Assembly (NCBI GenBank): GCA_021736785.1 | Contig: JAIPFF010000001.1 | Span: 124,001 to 188,000, forward strand | Length of the DNA: 64,000 nucleotides | DNA from: Thiohalocapsa sp. | GTDB taxonomy: Bacteria; Pseudomonadota; Gammaproteobacteria; Chromatiales; Chromatiaceae | Reading direction: 5' to 3' | In this document: positions 2,391 through 43,299 of the stretch, in pieces | Layout of the letters: every line of letters begins with the position of its first letter | Numbering within the stretch: the stretch's first letter is position 1 | Translations under genes and position numbers: made by a program | Notes under the pieces: model-generated | Seen by the model: the letters and a program-made list of their open reading frames with translations, nothing else | The model's database searches: none | What the model was told of the DNA's origin: nothing

Positions 2391-3586
2391 CGCGCTGCGC
2401 CGGTTGCCGGGCCGGTTGCCGCGCGGGCCTCGCGAAGCAGGGCGACGATACGCTGCAGGTCTTGCCACCCCTTGGCCTTCTCGGCCGGGCTGCGTAGGTA
2501 GTACGACGGATGATAAGTCACCACTAAGGCTGTCCCGTTTGCGCCGTAGCTGTGGATCTTGTTCCGCAGGCGCCCCACCGACTCTTCGTTGCCCAGCAGG
2601 TTGGTGGCCGAGACGCCTCCGAGGCTGACCAAGAGCTTGGGCGCCACTAATTCGATCTGCCGCATCAGATAGGCACGGCAAGCGGCCGCCTCCTCCGGCT
2701 GCGGGTTGCGGTTGTTGGGCGGGCGGCACTTCACCACGTTGGCGATGTAAACCTCCGAGCGAGTCATGTCGACCGCTGCAAGCATGCGGTCGAGCAACTG
2801 TCCGGCGCGGCCGACGAAGGGCTCCCCCTTCAGGTCCTCGTCGTGGCCGGGTGCCTCGCCGACGAACATCAGCTCGGCGTTGCGGTCGCCGACACCGAAG
2901 ACGGTATTGGTGCGTCGCTCGCAGAGCCCGCAGGCGCGGCAGCCTGCGACGGCCTGCTCCAGCGCATCCCAGTCCATGGCCGCGACCGGGCTCGGCGCAT
3001 CGCGATCGGCCGGCGCGTCGCCGTCCGGCGCCGCGCCGAAGTCGTCGATCTCGTAGTCCGCGTCGATCCAGGGCGGAATGTCGTCGTAGGGCGGCGGCGC
3101 GTCGTCGGCAGCAGGACGAGCGCGGCCGACGGGGACGGCGGTGGTTGCCGATGCCGCCGCGCCGGTGGCGGGCGCAGGCGCCGAAGGAGTGGATCGCGGC
3201 GCGCCGCCGCCGGCAGCGTCGGGGGTCGATGCCGCGGCAGCGGTGCTTGCGGGGGGCGGCTCACGGCCTGCGGTCGGGCTAGGCGCGGGCCGGGGCCGCG
3301 TGCGTTGCGTCGGTGCGTCACCGCCGGCGCGTGGGCTCGCGTCAGCCGCCTCGGTGCGAGGGGGGAGCGACGGGTTGCGATGCGCGTCGGAGCTTTCGGA
3401 GGGCGCCGACGACGTGCTTGTGGGCGCGCCGCCGCCGGACGCCGCGAGGGCATCTCCCGACTCGCTCCGCCGGAGTCCCGCGCGCCCGGCATCGCCAGCC
3501 TCGCCCGTGCCGTCGCGGGCGGACCTGGGGCGCCATAGCGGGATGCCGATGGCGGCCAAATATCGACGGCTGCGGGCGCGGTCCAT
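2387..3586 (-). CDS. Family 4 (Fe-S) uracil-DNA glycosylase with long disordered linker
   Basis: Removes uracil from DNA at the start of base-excision repair. The catalytic core occupies about residues 205-390: GEAPG at 243-247 (motif 1), HPS at 359-361 (motif 2), and cysteines 216, 219, 287 and 303 spaced as the 4Fe-4S ligands of family 4. The first 20 residues ([15 protein letters not shown]) resemble the short N-terminal motif seen in gammaproteobacterial relatives. Between them lies an unusually long linker (about 22-205) rich in Ala, Pro, Ser, Thr and Arg, ending in [10 protein letters not shown] and an acidic stretch. At 399 residues it is much longer than the core enzyme (about 200). 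It begins 4 bp after the leuA stop, so it is probably co-transcribed with leuA. Confidence 0.92.
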
Positions 3587-33901: not shown

Positions 33902-36900
33902 TCAGCAACCCGGCCGGTAGCGCAAGTCCAGCGTGTGTGGGTGCTCGCCTGCCGGCTCTTCGGGCGGCGCGTCGATATCCCCGGGCGTGTGGCCGATCAG
34001 GCGGAAGCGAGCGATTCTGCGCCCCTCGGCCTCGTAGCTGTTGACCGGAAAGGTCTCGTGGCTGCGCCCGCCGGGATGCGCGACATAGTAGGTGCAGCCG
34101 CCGAGACTGGCGCGGTTCCAGGTATCGACGACGTCGAACACCAGCGGGCTGTGGGACGGGATGGTCGGATGAAGCCCGGATGGCGGGCTCCAGGCCTTGA
34201 ATCGGATGCCGGCGACGAACTCCCCCTTGCGTCCGGTCGGTCGCAGCGGCACACGGCGGCCGTTGCAGGCCAGTACATGGCGCTCGCCGACCATGCCGTC
34301 GACGCGCACCTGCATGCGCTCCACCGCGCTGTCGACGAACCGCGACGTGCCGAGCGCGGTGACCTCTTCGCCCAGCACATGCCATGGCTCGATGGCGCCG
34401 CGCAATTCCATACGAATGCCGTTTGCGGTGATCAGGTCGCCGTAGTGCGGGAAGCGGAACTCGAAGAACGGCTCGAACCAGGCCGGGTCGAACGGGTAGC
34501 CGGCCCGCTGCAGGTCGCAGATCACGTCGCCGAAGTCCTGGCGTACGAAATGCGGCAGCAGGAAGCGATCGTGCAGCGCCGTGCCCCAGCGCACTGGCTT
34601 GCGGGTATAGGGCGTCTCCCAAAAGCGGGCCACAAGCGCGCGCAGCAACAGCATCTGCGCCAGGCTCATGCGCGGGTGCGGTGGCATCTCGAAGCCGCGG
34701 AACTCCACCAGGCCTTGGCGGCCCGACGCGGAATCCGGCGAGTACAGTTTGTCGATACAGAACTCGGTGCGGTGGGTGTTGCCGGTCACGTCCACCAGCA
34801 AGTTTCGCAGCACGCGGTCGACGATCCAGGGCTGCGGCACCTGCCCCGCGGGCATCTGACTGAATGCGATTTCCAACTCGTAGAGGCTGTCGTCGCGTGC
34901 CTCGTCGACACGCGGCGCCTGGCTGGTTGGACCGATGAAGGTGCCCGAGAACAGGTAGGACAGGCTCGGGTGATGCTGCCAGTAGGTGATCAGGCTCTGC
35001 AGCAGGTCCGGTTTGCGCAGCAGCGGGCTGTCGGCGGGCGTCGGGCCGCCCAGCGTGACGTGATTGCCGCCGCCGGTGCCGGTGTGGCGGCCGTCGAGCA
35101 TGAATTTTTCGGTGCCGAGTCGCGCCAGACGCGCTTCCTCGTAAAGAACGTGCGTGACGTTGACCAGATCGTCCCAGGCCTCGGCCGGGTGCACGTTGAC
35201 CTCGATGACGCCGGGGTCGGGCGTGACCGCGAGCTTGTGCAGGCGGAAATCCCGCGGCGGCTCGTATCCCTCGAGGATAATCTTCAGACCCGTTTCCGCC
35301 GCGGCCGCCTCGATGCACGAGACCAAATCCAGCCAGTGCTCCAGGTGGGTAAGCGGCGGCATGAAGCAATACAGCCTGCCGTCGCGTGGCTCGATGCAGA
35401 GCGCCGTGCGTACCTGTGTCGATGGATAATCGCCGGGCAGAGGCGACTGCTCCGAGAGCGGTTGGCCGCGCTCGTGCTCGCCGGGCGCGCCTGCGTAGCG
35501 GCGCCCGGTAGCGGCAGGATCCGAGCCCTGCGCGCCGAGTGCGCGGTGCGGGATGGACGACGCTGCGGCGCTCCCCGTGCGGACGCCGCCCGGCGCGGGC
35601 GAGGCGTGGCGTTGCGACGCGGTGTGCAGCGCGGCGACCGGCTCGAACGGATCACGCTCTGGATGGGTGTCCAGGTTTTTGTCCGGGACATAGGGCAGCG
35701 CGTCGAGCGGCAACCGGAAGCCCATGGGCGAGTCGCCGGGGATAAGGAACAGGTTGCCGTCGCGCAGGGCCCACTTGCCGCTGACCCAGCCGCCGCCGCC
35801 GTCGACGGTGAGGCCGGCCCAGCGCAGCGGCAGCGCGTGGCCGGCCACGCGATCGAGGCCCTGGCTGAACAGGCGGGCGATGCGCGCGCGCTCGATCGGA
35901 TCCTTTAGCTTGCTGTCCAGCGGATCGACATTGACCGGCAGCCGGGCCTCACGCCACAGATAATAAAACACGTCCTCGTGTGCCGGCTGCGCGTGGCTTG
36001 GATCGACGCCCAGCTTGACGGCCAGCGTCTCGACGAATCGGGCCGACTCTTCGGGGCCATGGTCGTAGCCCTCGCGCTCGCTGCCGAGCAGTGACTCGTC
36101 GCGCCAGATCGCCTCGCCGTCTTTGCGCCAGTAGCAGGCCAGCGCCCAGCGCGGAAGCTGCTCGCCGGGATACCACTTGCCCTGGCCGATATGCAGGACT
36201 CCGCCGGCCGCGAAGCGCTCCTTCAGCCGTAATAGCAGATCTTCGGCGAGGGGTTTCTTGGTCGGGCCGAGCGCGTCGATATTCCATTCCGCGCCGTCCA
36301 TATCGTCGATGGAGACGAAGGTCGGCTCTCCGCCCATGGTCAGGCGCACGTCATTGCGCCCGAGGGTGTCATCGACGGCGTGACCGAGCGCCTCGATGGC
36401 GCGCCACTGGTCTTCGGTGTAGGGCTTGGTGACGCGCGGGTCTTCGTGGATGCGCTTGACCCGATTGTGGAAGTAGAACGTCACGTCGCATGGGTCCGTG
36501 GCGCCGGTGATCGGCGCGGCGGAGACCGGGTCCGGCGTGCAGGCGAGCGGGATGTGACCCTCGCCGGCAAACAATCCGGAAGTGGGATCGAGGCCGATCC
36601 AGCCGGCGCCGGGCACATAGACCTCGGCCCAGGCGTGTAGATCGGTGAAATCGCGCTCGGGACCACTCGGGCCGTCGAGGGATTTGACGTCGGCGGTCAG
36701 CTGAACCAGGTAACCCGAGACGAAGCGTGCGGCGAGTCCGAGGTGGCGCAGGATCTGCACGAGCAGCCAGCCCGTGTCGCGGCAGGAGCCTTTGCCGAGG
36801 CGCAGCGTCTCTTCGCTGGTCTGAACGCCGGGCTGCATGCGGATGACATAGCCGATGTCCTGCTGCAGCTTGCGATTCAGGTCGACCAAAAAGTAGACCA

Positions 36901-37321
36901 CCTCGCGCGGGCTTCGGTCGATCTCGGCCAGCCACTCGCGCAGCAGCGGGCCGTCGTCGCGACGCACCAGGTAGGGCGACAGTTCCTTGGTCAGTTGGTG
37001 CTCGTACTCGAACGGAAATTGGTAGGCATAGTCGTCGACGAAGAAGTCGAACGGATTGATGGTCACCATCTCGGCGATGACGTCGACCTCGACGGTCAGC
37101 GCCCGCGCCTCTTCGTTGAAGACCAGTCGGGCCAGATAGTTGCCGAACGGGTCTTGCTGCCAGTTGATGAAGTGCGCTTCGGGCTCGATGCGCAGCGAGT
37201 AGGAGCGAATCGGCGTGCGGCAGTGCGGCGCCGGGCGCAAGCGCACGGTGTGCGGCGCCAGCGAGACGGACCGGTCGAACCGATATTCGGTTTTGTGATT
37301 GATGGCAACGAGAATCGACAT
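33902..37321 (-). CDS. Transglutaminase-DUF2126 (putative amidoligase) fusion protein
   Basis: An 1139-residue two-part protein. The N-terminal part (1-295) is a bacterial transglutaminase-like module: beta N-domain from residue 3, then the Cys180 (GKGSCRDTGWLL), His229 (LHAWAEVYVPG) and Asp245 triad. The remainder is DUF2126 (about 305-1130), described in Pfam as a putative amidoligase, with conserved RLTMGGEPTFVSIDDMDGAE, FMLDGRHTGTGGGNHVTLGG and VEFRGFEMPPHPRM. A disordered insert (about 560-640) interrupts it. The transglutaminase half could hydrolyse or transfer isopeptide bonds and the amidoligase half could make them. It is divergent from the ATP-grasp gene, which belongs to the same predicted system. 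Substrate unknown; no signal peptide. Confidence 0.92.
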   Translation of the reverse strand: MSILVAINHKTEYRFDRSVSLAPHTVRLRPAPHCRTPIRSYSLRIEPEAHFINWQQDPFGNYLARLVFNEEARALTVEVDVIAEMVTINPFDFFVDDYAYQFPFEYEHQLTKELSPYLVRRDDGPLLREWLAEIDRSPREVVYFLVDLNRKLQQDIGYVIRMQPGVQTSEETLRLGKGSCRDTGWLLVQILRHLGLAARFVSGYLVQLTADVKSLDGPSGPERDFTDLHAWAEVYVPGAGWIGLDPTSGLFAGEGHIPLACTPDPVSAAPITGATDPCDVTFYFHNRVKRIHEDPRVTKPYTEDQWRAIEALGHAVDDTLGRNDVRLTMGGEPTFVSIDDMDGAEWNIDALGPTKKPLAEDLLLRLKERFAAGGVLHIGQGKWYPGEQLPRWALACYWRKDGEAIWRDESLLGSEREGYDHGPEESARFVETLAVKLGVDPSHAQPAHEDVFYYLWREARLPVNVDPLDSKLKDPIERARIARLFSQGLDRVAGHALPLRWAGLTVDGGGGWVSGKWALRDGNLFLIPGDSPMGFRLPLDALPYVPDKNLDTHPERDPFEPVAALHTASQRHASPAPGGVRTGSAAASSIPHRALGAQGSDPAATGRRYAGAPGEHERGQPLSEQSPLPGDYPSTQVRTALCIEPRDGRLYCFMPPLTHLEHWLDLVSCIEAAAAETGLKIILEGYEPPRDFRLHKLAVTPDPGVIEVNVHPAEAWDDLVNVTHVLYEEARLARLGTEKFMLDGRHTGTGGGNHVTLGGPTPADSPLLRKPDLLQSLITYWQHHPSLSYLFSGTFIGPTSQAPRVDEARDDSLYELEIAFSQMPAGQVPQPWIVDRVLRNLLVDVTGNTHRTEFCIDKLYSPDSASGRQGLVEFRGFEMPPHPRMSLAQMLLLRALVARFWETPYTRKPVRWGTALHDRFLLPHFVRQDFGDVICDLQRAGYPFDPAWFEPFFEFRFPHYGDLITANGIRMELRGAIEPWHVLGEEVTALGTSRFVDSAVERMQVRVDGMVGERHVLACNGRRVPLRPTGRKGEFVAGIRFKAWSPPSGLHPTIPSHSPLVFDVVDTWNRASLGGCTYYVAHPGGRSHETFPVNSYEAEGRRIARFRLIGHTPGDIDAPPEEPAGEHPHTLDLRYRPGC

Positions 37322-37762
37322 GCCTGTGTACTGCTGTACTGAAGGGGAGGAAGGGGTTGATCAGCCGCTGGCAAGAATCATTCCTGCTGGGTCGCCGGGG
37401 CTGCAGGTCGGCGCCGGTGCCGTCCGCGGCCGTGGATTGCGTGGACGTTTGCACCGAATTGGACCGCCCGCTGTCGGCGCTTGCGCGAATTCAGGGCGCG
37501 CGCCGGGTCTGCGATGAGCCGAAGCCGATGCGTTGCGCGGCCTGCGCACGCTCGTGGCCCTCCTGCTGCCGCATGCCGCGGCCCAGAGCACGTCGGCACG
37601 CCGGCGCGCGGACCTCGCCGCGACCGCGCCTGCTCTCGACACCGCGTGTCCCTGTGTTCGTAACTTTGGCGCGTATTCTGCATAGGGCCTGTTTCGGTAG
37701 CGTCTCGTTCCGCAGGCGAACGACCTAGCGGCGCGAAGTTTCCTCGGGGGGCCGAGCGAGTC
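37322..37762. other. 441-bp divergent intergenic region
   Basis: Separates the DUF2126 gene (minus) and the ATP-grasp gene (plus). I see no credible coding sequence; open frames here have biased composition and no ribosome-binding site. It should contain the promoters for both arms of the amidoligase locus. A short inverted repeat GTAC-TGCT-GTAC lies close to the minus-strand gene. No consensus sigma-70 or sigma-54 element could be placed with confidence. Confidence 0.6.
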
Positions 37763-39277
37763 ATGCGGATGTCCACGAATCAATTTCAGTCTTTCACCGG
37801 TCAGTTCCAGAGCATGCGGGGCCCTACGCAGACACCGGCCGGGCCCGGCCGCGGCGCAGGCCAGAGCATGGCCTTTCATGAGTTCTACCGCGACGACTTT
37901 CGCCCGCGCGAGCATTATCTGCCGATGTGGGAGCACATCCAGCGCACCGGCCAGCACCTGCTCGGCGACAAGGCGCGCGAGGCCCATCTGACGCTGCACA
38001 CCGAAGGCGTGACCTTCACCGTCTACTCCAACCAAGACGAGGGCATCGAGCGCGTCTGGCCCTTCGACATTCTGCCGCGCATCATCACGGCCGGGGAATG
38101 GGCCCATATCGAGGCCGGCCTGAAACAGCGGATCCGGGCGCTCAATCTGTTCCTGAAAGATCTCTATCACGGTCAGCGCATCTTGAAAGACGGCGTGATT
38201 CCGGCGCAGCTGATCTACAACGGCAAGGACTTTCGCCGCGAGATCATGGATATCGACGCGCCGCACGACATCTACACCCATATCAGCGGCGTCGATCTGA
38301 TCCGCGACGAGGACGGGCGCTACCTGGTGCTCGAGGATAACCTGCGCACGCCGTCGGGGGTCTCGTACATGATCGAGAACCGGGTGGTGGAGCGGCGCAT
38401 TCTGCCGGAGTTCTTCGCCCGTTACCGGGTGCGCCGCGTCGAGCACTATCCGGCGCTGCTGCTGCAGGCGCTGCGCCACCTTTCGCCACGCGGCAAGGAC
38501 CGGGCGAACATCGTGGTACTAACACCGGGCATCTATAACTCCGCCTATTTCGAGCACACCTTCCTGGCCAAGGAAATGGGCGTCGAGCTCGCCGAGGGCC
38601 GGGACTTGGTCTGCAAGAACGATAAGGTCTATCTCAAGACCACGCACGGCCTCGAGCGGGTGGACGTCGTCTACCGCCGGGTCGACGACGACTTTCTGGA
38701 CCCTCTTGTCTTCCGCGCCGATTCCGTGCTCGGCGTTGCCGGCGTCATCAACGCTTGGCGCGCGGGGAACGTCGCACTGGTCAACGCGCCGGGTGCCGGG
38801 ATCGCCGATGATAAGGCCGTCTACGCCTACGTGCCCGAGATTATTCGCTACTACCTGGGCGAGTCGCCGATTCTGCAGAACGTGCCCACCTACCAGATGA
38901 CCAACCCGGAGGATCGCGCCTACGTGCTCGATAATCTGGAGCGTATGGTGGTCAAGGCGGTCGCCGAATCCGGCGGCTACGGCATGTTGATGGGGCCGAG
39001 CTCGACCACGGCGCAGCGGGCCGAGTTCGCGCGCAAGATCGAAGATGATCCGCGCAATTATATCGCCCAGCCGGTGGTCCAGCTGTCGCGACATATTTGC
39101 TATTTGGACGGCGAGTTGGAATCACGCCACTTGGACCTGCGTCCGTTCATTATCTACGGAGACGGCATCGACGTCGTGCCGGGCGGTCTGACCCGCGTGG
39201 CGATGACCAAGGGCTCCCTGGTGGTCAACTCTTCACAGGGCGGCGGAAGCAAGGACACCTGGGTGTTGGCGGACTGA
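37763..39277 (+). CDS. Circularly permuted ATP-grasp protein (COG2308)
   Basis: A 504-residue protein of the circularly permuted type 2 ATP-grasp family (DUF404/DUF407). Landmarks: FHEFYRDDFRPREHY, GVTFTVYSNQDEGIERVWPF, DIDAPHDIYTHISGVDLIRD, YLVLEDNLRTPSGVSYMIEN, and GGYGMLMGPSST with the late catalytic region RHLDLRPFIIYGDGI. ATP-grasp enzymes activate a carboxylate as acyl-phosphate and join it to an amine, so a peptide-like ligase is the family-based prediction. The N-terminal 35 residues hold a Gln/Phe-rich repeat (QFQSFTGQFQSM) not part of the domain; ATGs at 37763 and 37769 are possible starts. The alpha-E gene follows in the same direction. Confidence 0.92.
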   Translation: MRMSTNQFQSFTGQFQSMRGPTQTPAGPGRGAGQSMAFHEFYRDDFRPREHYLPMWEHIQRTGQHLLGDKAREAHLTLHTEGVTFTVYSNQDEGIERVWPFDILPRIITAGEWAHIEAGLKQRIRALNLFLKDLYHGQRILKDGVIPAQLIYNGKDFRREIMDIDAPHDIYTHISGVDLIRDEDGRYLVLEDNLRTPSGVSYMIENRVVERRILPEFFARYRVRRVEHYPALLLQALRHLSPRGKDRANIVVLTPGIYNSAYFEHTFLAKEMGVELAEGRDLVCKNDKVYLKTTHGLERVDVVYRRVDDDFLDPLVFRADSVLGVAGVINAWRAGNVALVNAPGAGIADDKAVYAYVPEIIRYYLGESPILQNVPTYQMTNPEDRAYVLDNLERMVVKAVAESGGYGMLMGPSSTTAQRAEFARKIEDDPRNYIAQPVVQLSRHICYLDGELESRHLDLRPFIIYGDGIDVVPGGLTRVAMTKGSLVVNSSQGGGSKDTWVLAD

Positions 39278-39549
39278 GCCCCCGTCTTCGTTCGATGCAC
39301 GATCATGACGCAAACGGATGCGAGGCATGCGAACGGGAGGAAGCTCGGGTCTGCGAGCCGTTGCCGTTTCGTGCCGCTGCCCGGTCGGGCGCGGCGATCA
39401 TCGCTCGATGAGCGATTTCGCTTCACGCCCGGCGCAAGCACCTCCCGCGGCCGATGCCGCCGGGCGGCGCGTTTGCGGCGTGCTCGCGCACCGAGGTTGC
39501 CGGGCCGCGTCTCCCCGTGTCTCTCAAGCCAATTCCCGGTCAGGCATCC

Positions 39550-40545
39550 ATGCTGAGTAGAATCGCCGAATCCCTCTATTGGATGGCGCGAAATCTGGAG
39601 CGCGCCGATGACACGGCGCGTATTCTCGATATCAACGTCGTCTTCATGCTCGAGGCCGACGAGGGCGCGACGGAGGAGATGCAATGGACGCCGCTCTTGT
39701 CCATTGTCGGCGCCGACGAGGCCTATCTTGCGCGCCATCCCGACGGCAAGGTGACAGTCCAACGCGTGATTCATCTGCTGACTCAGGACAAGGATTACGG
39801 CGGCTCGCTGTACAACAGCCTGCGCACGGGGCGCGAGAACGCCCGTGTCGTGCGCGACCGCATCTCTCAGGAAATGTGGGAGGCGATCAACGAGTTCTGG
39901 TTGTCCACCGACCGCCACCTCAAGGCCAAACTGCAGCCCTGGCGCGCGGCCGAGTTCTACGCCTACGTGCACCGCGAGGTGGCGCTGTTTTTCGGGCTTG
40001 CGCAGAGCACCATGATGCGCGGCGAGGCTTACGGATTTACGGTGCTCGGCAGCCTGCAGGAGCGCGCCGATATGACGGCGCGAATCCTCGATGTCCGCTA
40101 CCATCTATTGTTGCCGGATCTGACGTTGGTCGGCTCGCCGTTGGACTATTATCAGTGGGGCGCGTTGTTGAAGTCGCTGTCGGGCTTCGAGGCCTACCGC
40201 CGGAAATACCATAGCGGTATTCGGCCCATCGACGTCGTCGAGTTCGTCTTGCTCGATCCGGATTTCCCGCGCTCGCTGCGTTATTGCGTAGACGGGCTCG
40301 ATCGGGCGATCGAGCGCATCGGACTGGTGCGCGGAGGCTTGGTCGCGGAGCGCCTGGCGGCGCTGCGCGCGCATCTCGACGCCACCTCGCCGCGAGCCGT
40401 GCTGGATCAAGGACTGCACGAGTACTTGGACGACTTCCTTGCACTGCTGGCGGCGTTGACCGCCGCCCTGCAAGCGGATTATTTCGAAGCGCACATGGGC
40501 GAGCCCGAGTTGTCGGAGCCGCATCCGCAAGGAGAGGCCGGGTGA
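39550..40545 (+). CDS. Alpha-E domain protein (COG2307)
   Basis: A 331-residue, mostly helical protein that starts MLSRIAESLYWMARNLERAD, the invariant opening of the alpha-E (DUF403) family. Other conserved segments are RENARVVRDRISQEMWEAIN and FLLDPDFPRSLRYC-like VLLDPDFPRSLRYCVDGLD. It is always encoded with COG2308 ATP-grasp and transglutaminase genes and is predicted to be a partner or scaffold of the ligase. The ATG at 39550 matches the family start. A 272-bp gap without coding evidence separates it from the ATP-grasp gene. Its stop overlaps the next gene (GTGA). Confidence 0.93.
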   Translation: MLSRIAESLYWMARNLERADDTARILDINVVFMLEADEGATEEMQWTPLLSIVGADEAYLARHPDGKVTVQRVIHLLTQDKDYGGSLYNSLRTGRENARVVRDRISQEMWEAINEFWLSTDRHLKAKLQPWRAAEFYAYVHREVALFFGLAQSTMMRGEAYGFTVLGSLQERADMTARILDVRYHLLLPDLTLVGSPLDYYQWGALLKSLSGFEAYRRKYHSGIRPIDVVEFVLLDPDFPRSLRYCVDGLDRAIERIGLVRGGLVAERLAALRAHLDATSPRAVLDQGLHEYLDDFLALLAALTAALQADYFEAHMGEPELSEPHPQGEAG

Positions 40546-41450
40546 ATTACCGTATCGAGCGTATCGACCGTTTGCATTTCAGCGCGGCGGTGCGCGAGCA
40601 CCATTTCGAATGCCGCGTCGCGCCCTGGGACGATGCTACCCAGCGGCTCAAGCGATTCGAGGTGCTGTCCGAGCCGACCGCGGACTTTGCATCCCATCGC
40701 GATGGCTTCGGCAACCAGGTGCATCGCTCGGCGCTGCTCGGCGCCCATGATGCCTTGGCGGTGCGCGTGCGCGCCGACGTCGAGACGCTGCTGCCGAATC
40801 CCTTCGATTTCGAACCGGTGGCGCCGGCGCGCGAGGGTGCCTGGATCGCCGACAGCCTGCGCCAGGCCCCGAGATTATGGGACTTCGTGCTGTATCGCAG
40901 TGCGCTGACGCCGGTGCTGACGCCGGCCACGGCGACCGAGTTGCTGGGCGAGGGCGACTGCTGGCCGGGGCCCGGCGAGCAAGTCCCGATGCTCGAGCGC
41001 ATCCAGCAGGCCCTGCAGTGGATCGGGGACCGGTTTGAGCACGACCCGGCACAACGGGAGCCGGCGCAGACGCTTGCGGAAGTCGTCGGCCGAGATGCTT
41101 GCCATGCCGCGGATCTGGCCCATCTGGCGATTGCTATCGTGCGTGCCTGGGGCATGCCCGCGCGTTTTGCAGCAGGTTATGTCGACGCCGACTGCTTCGA
41201 GTCGGACGATGACCCGCCGCGGACATCCGAGCCGCTGCCGCAGACGTTGCACTATTGGATGGAAGCGCTGGTGCCGGGCGCCGGTTGGCGCGGCTTCGAT
41301 GCGGCCCGAGGGCTATTGGCCGATGATTCCTACGTCCGTCTTGCGGTCGGCCGGGATCGGCACGACGTGCGCGGCTTTCGGCACAGCTACAAGGGCGACG
41401 GCGAGTACGCCGGCGTCGAAACCGAGATCGACGTCCAGCGTCTGGACTGA
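40542..41450 (+). CDS. Transglutaminase-like cysteine peptidase/transferase
   Basis: A 302-residue protein starting with GTG at 40542, overlapping the alpha-E stop and preceded by AAGGAGA. Transglutaminase N-domain (about 1-90) and core with catalytic Cys187 (GRDACHAADLAHLA), His237 (LHYWMEALVPGAGW) and Asp253. No signal peptide is seen, so it should work in the cytoplasm. In the predicted amidoligase system it would trim, transfer or proofread the isopeptide or peptide product of the ATP-grasp enzyme. It is the second transglutaminase of the locus; the first is fused to DUF2126. Confidence 0.92.
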   Translation: MNYRIERIDRLHFSAAVREHHFECRVAPWDDATQRLKRFEVLSEPTADFASHRDGFGNQVHRSALLGAHDALAVRVRADVETLLPNPFDFEPVAPAREGAWIADSLRQAPRLWDFVLYRSALTPVLTPATATELLGEGDCWPGPGEQVPMLERIQQALQWIGDRFEHDPAQREPAQTLAEVVGRDACHAADLAHLAIAIVRAWGMPARFAAGYVDADCFESDDDPPRTSEPLPQTLHYWMEALVPGAGWRGFDAARGLLADDSYVRLAVGRDRHDVRGFRHSYKGDGEYAGVETEIDVQRLD

Positions 41451-41466
41451 GCGTCCCGCACAACGA

Positions 41467-41495
41467 CGAAGCCCCGCCTGCGGGGCGGGGCTTCG
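41467..41495. terminator. Bidirectional terminator-type hairpin
   Basis: A 12-bp perfect stem (41467-41478 with 41484-41495) and 5-nt loop, 16 bp after the transglutaminase stop and 88 bp beyond the end of the convergent small gene. There is no T-tract on either side. Confidence 0.7.
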
Positions 41496-41582
41496 CGAAG
41501 AAGACACGGGGACAAAGCAGCCCCCGCAGCCGTACCTGGCGCCTTCCCCGACGTGGTCCTTGGCCAAGCGGCCTTTCGGCCC

Positions 41583-41738
41583 TTAATCTTCGATAAACGG
41601 ATTGGCCGTTTCGATGGTCTGAACTTCGACCACCGGCGCACGGTCTTTCTGTGCGTTCACGGCCTGATCGTCGTTGACGACGACTGCCGTCGACACGCTG
41701 CCGATCAAAAGTGCGGCTACGGCGAGAGGTGCAAGCAT
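41583..41738 (-). CDS. Small secreted or membrane-anchored peptide (51 aa), unknown function
   Basis: A 51-residue product that I read directly: start MLAPLAVAALLIGSVSTAVV, end VQTIETANPFIED. The first 20 residues are hydrophobic, like a signal peptide or single membrane anchor; the remaining 31 are acidic and polar with one conserved-looking NPF. Support for a real gene is strong: GGAGG 6 nt before the ATG, and TTGAAA-16-TATAAT upstream with a 35-base leader. It is convergent with the amidoligase cluster and divergent from the response regulator. No relative is recognised. A substrate or sensor peptide for the neighbouring enzymes is one speculative option. Confidence 0.8.
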   Translation of the reverse strand: MLAPLAVAALLIGSVSTAVVVNDDQAVNAQKDRAPVVEVQTIETANPFIED

Positions 41739-41779
41739 ATCGAGCCTCCGAAAAGAGTGACTTGGTTAAGATGGGAATC

Positions 41780-41807
41780 ATTATATAAGCATTTTCTAAT
41801 GTTTCAA
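41780..41807 (-). promoter_or_regulatory. Near-consensus sigma-70 promoter of the 51-aa peptide gene
   Basis: On the minus strand TTGAAA (41802-41807), 16-bp spacer, perfect TATAAT (41780-41785). The expected start of transcription is near 41773, 35 bases before the ATG. The surrounding 60 bp are the most AT-rich stretch nearby. Confidence 0.8.
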
Positions 41808-41925
41808 CCCTTGGCCAATAGACGTCCTCGCAACTCGTGATGTGTGTCAATATTTTCCGCGCCGTCAATCCCGGTGATCCGGCATGCCGGCGCGCACATC
41901 CGCACGCGGACCGTGAGATGCAACG

Positions 41926-43299
41926 ATGGGACAACGACTCCTGATCATCGAAGACGACGCGGCACTCGGGCAGATGCTGGCGCTGCATTTCGAGGACGAA
42001 GGCTTTGAAGTCCGCCTCGTGGAGCGCTGCGCGGCTGCTCTCGAGGCCGTCGCCGCGGACGATTTCGACTTGGCGCTGCTCGACCAGCAGTTGCCGGACG
42101 GCATGGGCAGCGCACTGCTGCCGCGTCTGCTGAAAGCCGCGCCGGAGCTGGCCGTCATCATGATGACGGGGCAGCACGATCTCGAGCTAGCCATCGAGGC
42201 GATTCAGCATGGTGCCGCGGACTTCGTGCACAAGCCCGTGCGCACCGACGATCTCCAGAACACGGTCGAGCGCCTGCTCGATAATCGGCGCATGGCGCGC
42301 GAGACCGTCAAGCCCGCCTCGATCGGCGCGCCCGTGGTTCAGCGCGACCTGATCGGTCGCAGCGATGCGATGCTGGTCGTCAGCAAGGCCATCGCGCTCG
42401 GCGCCCGGGGTTCGGCCACGGTGCTGATCACCGGCGAATCGGGCACCGGCAAGGAGGTCGCCGCACGCTTGATCCACCAGCACAGCGGTGTTTCCGGTCC
42501 GTTCGTCGCCCTCAACTGCGCGGCCATCGTCGATACGCTGCTCGAGAGCGAGCTGTTCGGCCACGAGCGCGGTGCGTTCACCGGCGCTCAGGCCCGCAAG
42601 CCGGGCAAGCTCGAACTGGCGAGCGACGGTACGCTGTTCTTGGACGAAGCCGGAGAGCTGGCGCCGCACCTGCAGGCCAAACTGCTGCGGGTGCTGCAGG
42701 AGCGGGTTTACGAGCGTGTCGGCGGCACCGAAACGCTGACCAGCAACGCGCGCATCATCGCCGCCACCAACCGCGACCTGATGGCGGAGGCGGCCGTCGG
42801 GCGCTTTCGCGAGGATCTCGCCTTCCGGCTACGGGTGATCGAGATCCGCATGCCGGCGCTGCGCGAGCGTAAAGAAGACATTCCGCTGCTGGTGGAAGGC
42901 TTGGCGGCGCGCATTGCGACGCGGCTGGAGCGTCCCGTGCCCGGCTTCGCGGAGTCGGCGCTCGCCGCGCTGCAGGCCTATGATTGGCCGGGCAACGTGC
43001 GCGAATTGGAAAACCTGTTGACCCGCGCGCTGGTGAATGCGCGCGACGGCGTCATCACTCCGGACCTGTTGGATCTGCCGGCAGGCGGCAAGGCGTCGGG
43101 CGCAACAGCGGCAGCGCCGGCCGAGACCGCGGCGGCGCTGCGCACCCTCGATGAGGTCGAGGCGGAGCATATCGGGCGCGTCCTTGCGCACACCGAAGGG
43201 CACAAGGGCCGCAGCGCCGAGATCCTCGGCATCTCGCGGCCTGCACTGGACCGCAAGATCGTCAAATACGGTCTACAGGTACAAAGGCGCCGCTCGTGA
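41926..43299 (+). CDS. NtrC-family sigma-54-dependent response regulator
   Basis: A 457-residue three-domain activator. Receiver (1-118) with Asp10/Asp11, phospho-acceptor Asp53 and Lys103 in VHKPVR. The AAA+ domain (about 140-375) has Walker A GESGTGKE, the sigma-54 contact loop GAFTGA, Walker B TLFLDEAGEL and WPGNVRELENLLTRALVNAR. The C-terminal Fis-type helix-turn-helix is GRSAEILGISRPALDRKIVK. All catalytic motifs are intact. No histidine kinase is encoded next to it, so it is an orphan in this window. Target genes unknown; the adjacent amidoligase locus is a candidate on position only. Confidence 0.93.
   Translation: MGQRLLIIEDDAALGQMLALHFEDEGFEVRLVERCAAALEAVAADDFDLALLDQQLPDGMGSALLPRLLKAAPELAVIMMTGQHDLELAIEAIQHGAADFVHKPVRTDDLQNTVERLLDNRRMARETVKPASIGAPVVQRDLIGRSDAMLVVSKAIALGARGSATVLITGESGTGKEVAARLIHQHSGVSGPFVALNCAAIVDTLLESELFGHERGAFTGAQARKPGKLELASDGTLFLDEAGELAPHLQAKLLRVLQERVYERVGGTETLTSNARIIAATNRDLMAEAAVGRFREDLAFRLRVIEIRMPALRERKEDIPLLVEGLAARIATRLERPVPGFAESALAALQAYDWPGNVRELENLLTRALVNARDGVITPDLLDLPAGGKASGATAAAPAETAAALRTLDEVEAEHIGRVLAHTEGHKGRSAEILGISRPALDRKIVKYGLQVQRRRS

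Follow-up and report, generated by a model that had tools for sequence, protein, structure and literature searches.

Does an open reading frame of 51 codons, lying on the minus strand beside an amidoligase gene cluster in Thiohalocapsa sp., represent a genuine gene, and if so, how may it be controlled and where may its product act? The window, i.e., the whole stretch of 64,000 nucleotides that was analyzed, sits within contig C50 of a 5.2 Mb genome which encodes photosynthetic reaction-centre subunits, and the organism is therefore counted among the purple sulfur bacteria of the family Chromatiaceae. The ways in which such bacteria perceive reduced sulfur and assemble sulfur globules are poorly understood. 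The features of the coding region are as follows:

41583..41738, minus strand: gene encoding a 51-amino-acid microprotein (MLAPLAVAALLIGSVSTAVVVNDDQAVNAQKDRAPVVEVQTIETANPFIED), read from ATG at 41738 to TAA at 41583; homologs in 50 of 210 Chromatiaceae genomes, pN/pS 0.21-0.43
41673..41738, minus strand: codons 1-22, hydrophobic (19-residue Kyte-Doolittle mean as high as 2.19) and predicted to form a membrane anchor that is not cleaved
41583..41672, minus strand: codons 23-51 and the stop codon, acidic tail that carries a VVEVQ motif and ends, in Thiohalocapsa, with PF
41745..41749, minus strand: GGAGG ribosome-binding site, 6 nt ahead of the ATG
41505..41528, minus strand: terminator-like hairpin with a T-rich tail, 3' of the reading frame
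about 41468-41495: GC-rich hairpin separating the reading frame from the convergent ligase cluster

It is essentially certain that this reading frame is a genuine gene, because homologs occur in congeners, a profile HMM matches in 50 of the 210 genomes, and the frame is under purifying selection. A first-pass annotation, made from the sequence alone, had proposed an unlisted 51-residue gene at this position, with GGAGG at good spacing and a strong hairpin toward the ligase cluster, all of which were found as described; among the checks it had named, the search of relatives and the conservation of the reading frame came out in its favor. Searching relatives with the 51-residue product (tblastn) revealed homologs in eight of nine congeners (49-63% identity, E 2e-5 to 4e-12), and the within-genus pN/pS given above compares with 1.1 and 3.4 in the shifted frames. 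The HMM matches, with E-values down to 9e-26, are spread over 18 of 61 genera, and some genomes hold two copies; the order-level search took in the same 210 genomes, and the distribution outside Chromatiaceae is judged from the few genomes covered by the tblastn search. Carriers include Thiohalocapsa halophila DSM 6210, T. marina DSM 19078, T. sp. ML1, and several Thiohalocapsa MAGs, and 45 of the 50 microprotein-bearing genomes belong to phototrophs, a count that ignores kinship. The homologs are short frames of 46-61 residues, with a VVEVQ-like motif central in most of them. The microprotein is thus one of a family of very small, probably membrane-anchored proteins that had no name before and that occurs in about 50 Chromatiaceae genomes. 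It showed no Pfam match and an NCBIfam match at chance level only (E 0.06), and the best match among 15 homologs scanned against both collections, DUF7263 (E 2.3e-4, in 4 of the 15), is not convincing; neither an Rfam nor a plasmid match was obtained. One contig (L072; G018:C135) carries tandem duplicates of the gene (2342-2510 and 2877-3039), each with its own promoter-like element.

The region upstream of the gene contains the following elements:

41802..41807, minus strand: -35 box TTGAAA, its TTG conserved in 40-47 of 49 homologs
41785..41800, minus strand: operator-like element ATTAGAAAATGCTTAT, within the -35/-10 spacer, of the class of ATTAG-N6-CTAAT found before sgp genes
41780..41785, minus strand: -10 box TATAAT; CTTATATAnT is nearly invariant in 49 homologs
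41773, minus strand: predicted transcription start, placed from the -10 position, with a 35-nt leader

The near-perfect promoter noted in the first-pass annotation holds: TTGAAA, a 16-nt spacer, and TATAAT match 11 of 12 consensus positions, the 35-base leader agrees with the predicted start, and this is the sole sigma-70-like site in 41400-41930, where 0.1 would be expected in shuffled sequences. The promoter, TTGAyA-aATTAGaatttGCTTATATAAT, is kept in nearly all of the 49 homologs, and the 49 aligned upstream regions give the consensus TTGAyA-aATTAGaawwtGCTTATATAaT between nearly random flanks, the motif block averaging 1.33 bits per position versus 0.17 upstream of it. At least seven positions of TTAG/CTTATATAnT are present at all 49 loci, and the element [A/T]TTAG-N6-CT[T/A]AT sits between the -35 and -10 boxes in nearly all of them. 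We regard the TTAG as operator-like because it is located in the spacer, outside any sigma-70 element. Ten of the 49 microprotein promoters, the window's own not among them, carry a second copy of the operator exactly 15 bp upstream, overlapping the -35 box, and one sgp promoter has a second copy at the same spacing. In most microprotein promoters the right half reads CTTAT where the palindrome has CTAAT, and we therefore only infer that it is bound by the same regulator as the palindrome. A 22-mer search allowing up to three mismatches returned 65 sites in 55 of the 210 genomes, versus one for the reversed pattern. In most Thiohalocapsa copies (L057, L059, L061-L063), a block TGTTACGATTTGTTACTT or a close variant overlaps or replaces the -35 region; it is absent from the promoter in the window and may be the site of another regulator.

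Elements of the same class stand before genes of sulfur metabolism. Exact ATTAG-N6-CTAAT occurs at 53 sites in 23 genomes, versus nine for the reversed pattern, and 11 of 23 sgp-like matches, coming from several genera, have an element matching at 11-12 of 12 positions at a distance of 75-108 nt upstream, which none of the 60 shuffles made for each reproduced. The 22-mer sites that lack a microprotein precede genes encoding sulfur-globule-like, SgpD-like, thioredoxin-like, cytochrome, and other small proteins, and in some cases nothing obvious. Further genes downstream of the element include one for an RND membrane-fusion protein, seen in at least eight genomes (in A. vinosum at C1:2131 kb), and one for a DUF302 lipoprotein, seen in the genome under study, on an A. 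vinosum plasmid, and in genome G152. A rhodanese gene follows the element in A. vinosum (C1:1010 kb), and another recurrent gene encodes a protein that was labeled DUF2892-like by eye. In the genome under study, the sites precede the microprotein, an RND gene (C8), a DUF302 lipoprotein gene (C93), and a gene encoding a small membrane protein (C37). The targets therefore include handlers of sulfide and sulfane sulfur (sgp, SgpD-like, rhodanese, DUF2892-like), together with DUF302 and RND proteins of putative sulfur role, and it is highly probable that the microprotein gene shares a sulfur-regulon promoter, a link which the first-pass annotation had not noticed.

The sgpA-D genes of A. vinosum and other Chromatiaceae resemble the microprotein gene in promoter architecture. 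The region upstream of sgpD in A. vinosum DSM 180 reads TTGATATTTCACAATTTTCTTATATACT and equals the published promoter, TTGATA-N13-TTATATACT, of a gene that is 28-fold up on sulfide (PMC10386293). Its spacer is TTTCACAATTTTC, lacking a full ATTAG half-site; therefore, the architecture and the CTTATATA half are common to both promoters, but the full ATTAG is not. A. vinosum sgpB has a weak element match only, SgpA-C have been called constitutively synthesized (PMC3368242), and in the genome under study the single sgp-like match carries no element and no SgpD was found. The published sgp promoters were predicted by software, with no regulator found named for them in the literature, and our literature search for an ATTAG/CTAAT operator connected with sulfide returned nothing relevant. 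The same operator class also precedes genes for small proteins such as MISCTTLRSTVVLSAGLLLSGVLLL..., for acidic, cysteine-containing 40-44-mers, and for a 64-amino-acid membrane protein (L135-L138, L146, L147, L150, L188, and C37:41853 of the genome under study). In addition, the palindrome lies before a gene that seems to encode the small subunit of a NiFe hydrogenase and before divergent genes for multihaem cytochromes (L260, L261, L262; G204, G205), which suggests a wider regulon.

The candidate regulator comes from comparison with the SqrR, BigR, YgaV, and sHdrR regulons, in which, as here, an element with the 16-bp geometry of an ATTn-N8-nAAT palindrome overlaps the promoter, a dithiol ArsR protein is encoded in the genome, and a rhodanese gene is found among those downstream of the element. 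The site of SqrR and YgaV is ATTC-N8-GAAT (PMC9774250). Our element has equal 16-bp geometry but reads ATTA(G-N6-C)TAAT, i.e., its fourth base is A (ATTAG..CTAAT) and not C (ATTC..GAAT), and the right half in microprotein promoters is CTTAT; the Hyphomicrobium SoxR and sHdrR papers give no motif. An ArsR protein of the genome under study (C23:1773) finds BigR as its best PDB match (3pqj, E 1.3e-17), with both cysteines aligned, and a second dithiol paralog is encoded at C56:27936; two highly conserved ArsR paralogs with the two class-typical cysteines are encoded across Chromatiaceae. On these sequence comparisons, an ArsR protein of the SqrR/BigR type may be the repressor of the element, with the chances for and against about evenly balanced. 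Autoregulation of an ArsR gene through the element was looked for and not found: no palindrome lies within 900 nt of any ArsR gene. With a defined operator and a candidate repressor identified by name, the question of how purple sulfur bacteria perceive reduced sulfur and assemble globules becomes directly testable.

Taken together, our best reading, to which we assign a probability of about 0.55, is that the gene encodes a single-pass membrane microprotein that is controlled by sulfane sulfur and is part of the sulfur-globule regulon. Its gene would be transcribed alone from the sigma-70 promoter, with an operator of the ATTAG-N6-CT[A/T]AT class in the -35/-10 spacer, where a bound repressor would block polymerase. 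The likely repressor would be a member of the ArsR family resembling SqrR, BigR, and YgaV; during sulfide or thiosulfate oxidation, sulfane sulfur would bridge its two cysteines, so that the DNA would be released and the gene induced. The product would be held in the inner membrane by its approximately 20 N-terminal residues, acting as an uncleaved anchor, with the acidic tail of about 30 residues most likely periplasmic, and would work on the periplasmic side of the cytoplasmic membrane, the periplasm being the compartment in which sulfur globules arise. Among these steps, we infer the repression by ArsR, the induction by sulfide, the topology, and the role in globule formation or polysulfide handling. 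The last of these is tentative, with the odds clearly against it. Equally tentative is the fuller proposal that the microprotein is made together with the globule coat under a sulfane-sulfur repressor and organizes or tethers nascent globules, or the delivery of polysulfide, at the cytoplasmic membrane, the undescribed operator defining a Chromatiaceae sulfur-globule regulon. A. vinosum forms globules and has no detectable copy of the microprotein; therefore, globules as such can form without the protein, and any role there would be accessory. A family of proteins some 50 residues long, unnamed so far and placed under this operator, is a new candidate player in about 50 genomes.

Whether the product is anchored or released bears directly on this reading. 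The first-pass annotation had described a hydrophobic N-terminus and an acidic tail, both of which are present and conserved in relatives: in the 50 homologs, some 20 hydrophobic residues, among them an invariant glycine, precede an acidic tail with a mean net charge of -4.5. It had also called the peptide secreted, and on this point the data do not support it. If that were so, a Sec signal would be cut off behind VSTA, and the acidic tail of 31 residues would be set free in the periplasm to serve as a sensor, a chaperone, or a peptide of the globule coat, in line with the hydrophobic N-terminus, with the STA|A-like site in Thiohalocapsa, and with the extracytoplasmic location of the supposedly co-regulated Sgp proteins, of which SgpD has a cleavable Sec signal (PMC10386293). 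However, none of the 50 homologs has lysine or arginine within its first eight residues, the N-terminal segment is conserved better than the tail, unlike a disposable signal peptide, and many homologs outside Thiohalocapsa read VQTT at the would-be cleavage site, placing threonine at -1 and leaving no good signal-peptidase site. For these reasons, the N-terminus is likely to be an uncleaved membrane anchor, with a probable N-in/C-out topology, and release of the tail appears unlikely; AlphaFold models of nine microprotein sequences were uninformative (pLDDT 58, pTM 0.14). The protein, which lacks cysteine in all 50 homologs, is not an Sgp protein itself: unlike Sgp proteins, which are released into the periplasm, it is predicted to be anchored, has neither a charged n-region nor an evident cleavage site, carries an acidic tail, and is neither rich in glycine, tyrosine, and asparagine nor similar to SgpD.

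The preferred reading, a membrane microprotein under a sulfur-responsive promoter, also has to be weighed against explanations that place the gene outside sulfur metabolism or attach its product to a partner. The shared element could be a strong housekeeping promoter and not an operator, leaving the microprotein with no link to sulfur: it overlaps the -35 and -10 boxes and contains a good -10, and its operator status is a prediction from sequence. Sites are nevertheless few per genome (0-2 for the 22-mer, 1-7 for the palindrome), many of them lie before sulfur genes, the invariant TTAG falls outside sigma-70 contacts, and true palindromes and tandem copies exist, which makes this explanation improbable. 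Slightly less improbable is that the microprotein joins a membrane complex as a small partner, working on the co-regulated RND exporter in the way AcrZ works on AcrB. AcrZ-type proteins are small inner-membrane partners of RND pumps, about 50 amino acids long with one hydrophobic helix; the microprotein is likewise single-pass and of this size, and many genomes carry the same operator at an RND membrane-fusion protein gene. Unlike AcrZ-type proteins, it has no family match, and its phyletic profile does not track the pump: the membrane-fusion protein occurs in 167 of the 210 genomes versus 50 for the microprotein, and tight co-occurrence of the two was accordingly rejected. Least probable of all, to the point of being remote, is the suggestion, raised in part by the first-pass annotation, that the microprotein is a substrate, modified on its tail, or a regulator of the adjacent enzymes. 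The window holds at 33902-41450 a normal COG2307/2308 cluster with genes for a DUF2126 amidoligase, a circularly permuted ATP-grasp protein, an Alpha-E protein, and a transglutaminase, and among the 50 microprotein loci, whose neighbors were assigned by tblastn, COG2308 lies near 15, in several genera, as does Alpha-E near 15. Adjacency is however missing from most loci, several in Thiohalocapsa among them (COG2308/Alpha-E within about 6 kb in only four of nine), so the expected conserved position next to COG2307/2308 did not emerge. Moreover, the commonest neighbor is NikR (20 of 50 loci), the C-terminus of the tail is not conserved beyond Thiohalocapsa, and the gene is served by a separate promoter, whose class also occurs ahead of sulfur genes. 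The position of the gene is in part an ancestral trait, but the functional signal lies in the promoter.

A divergent NtrC-type regulator gene lies near 9 of the 50 microprotein loci. In many genera, the microprotein gene is flanked on one side by a divergent gene for a HerA-like ATPase and on the other by a co-directional nikR, and in other genera, a CbiM-type transporter gene and nikR are found a few kb away (L067, L073, L075, L078, L080-L082, L093, L097, L101, and L102).
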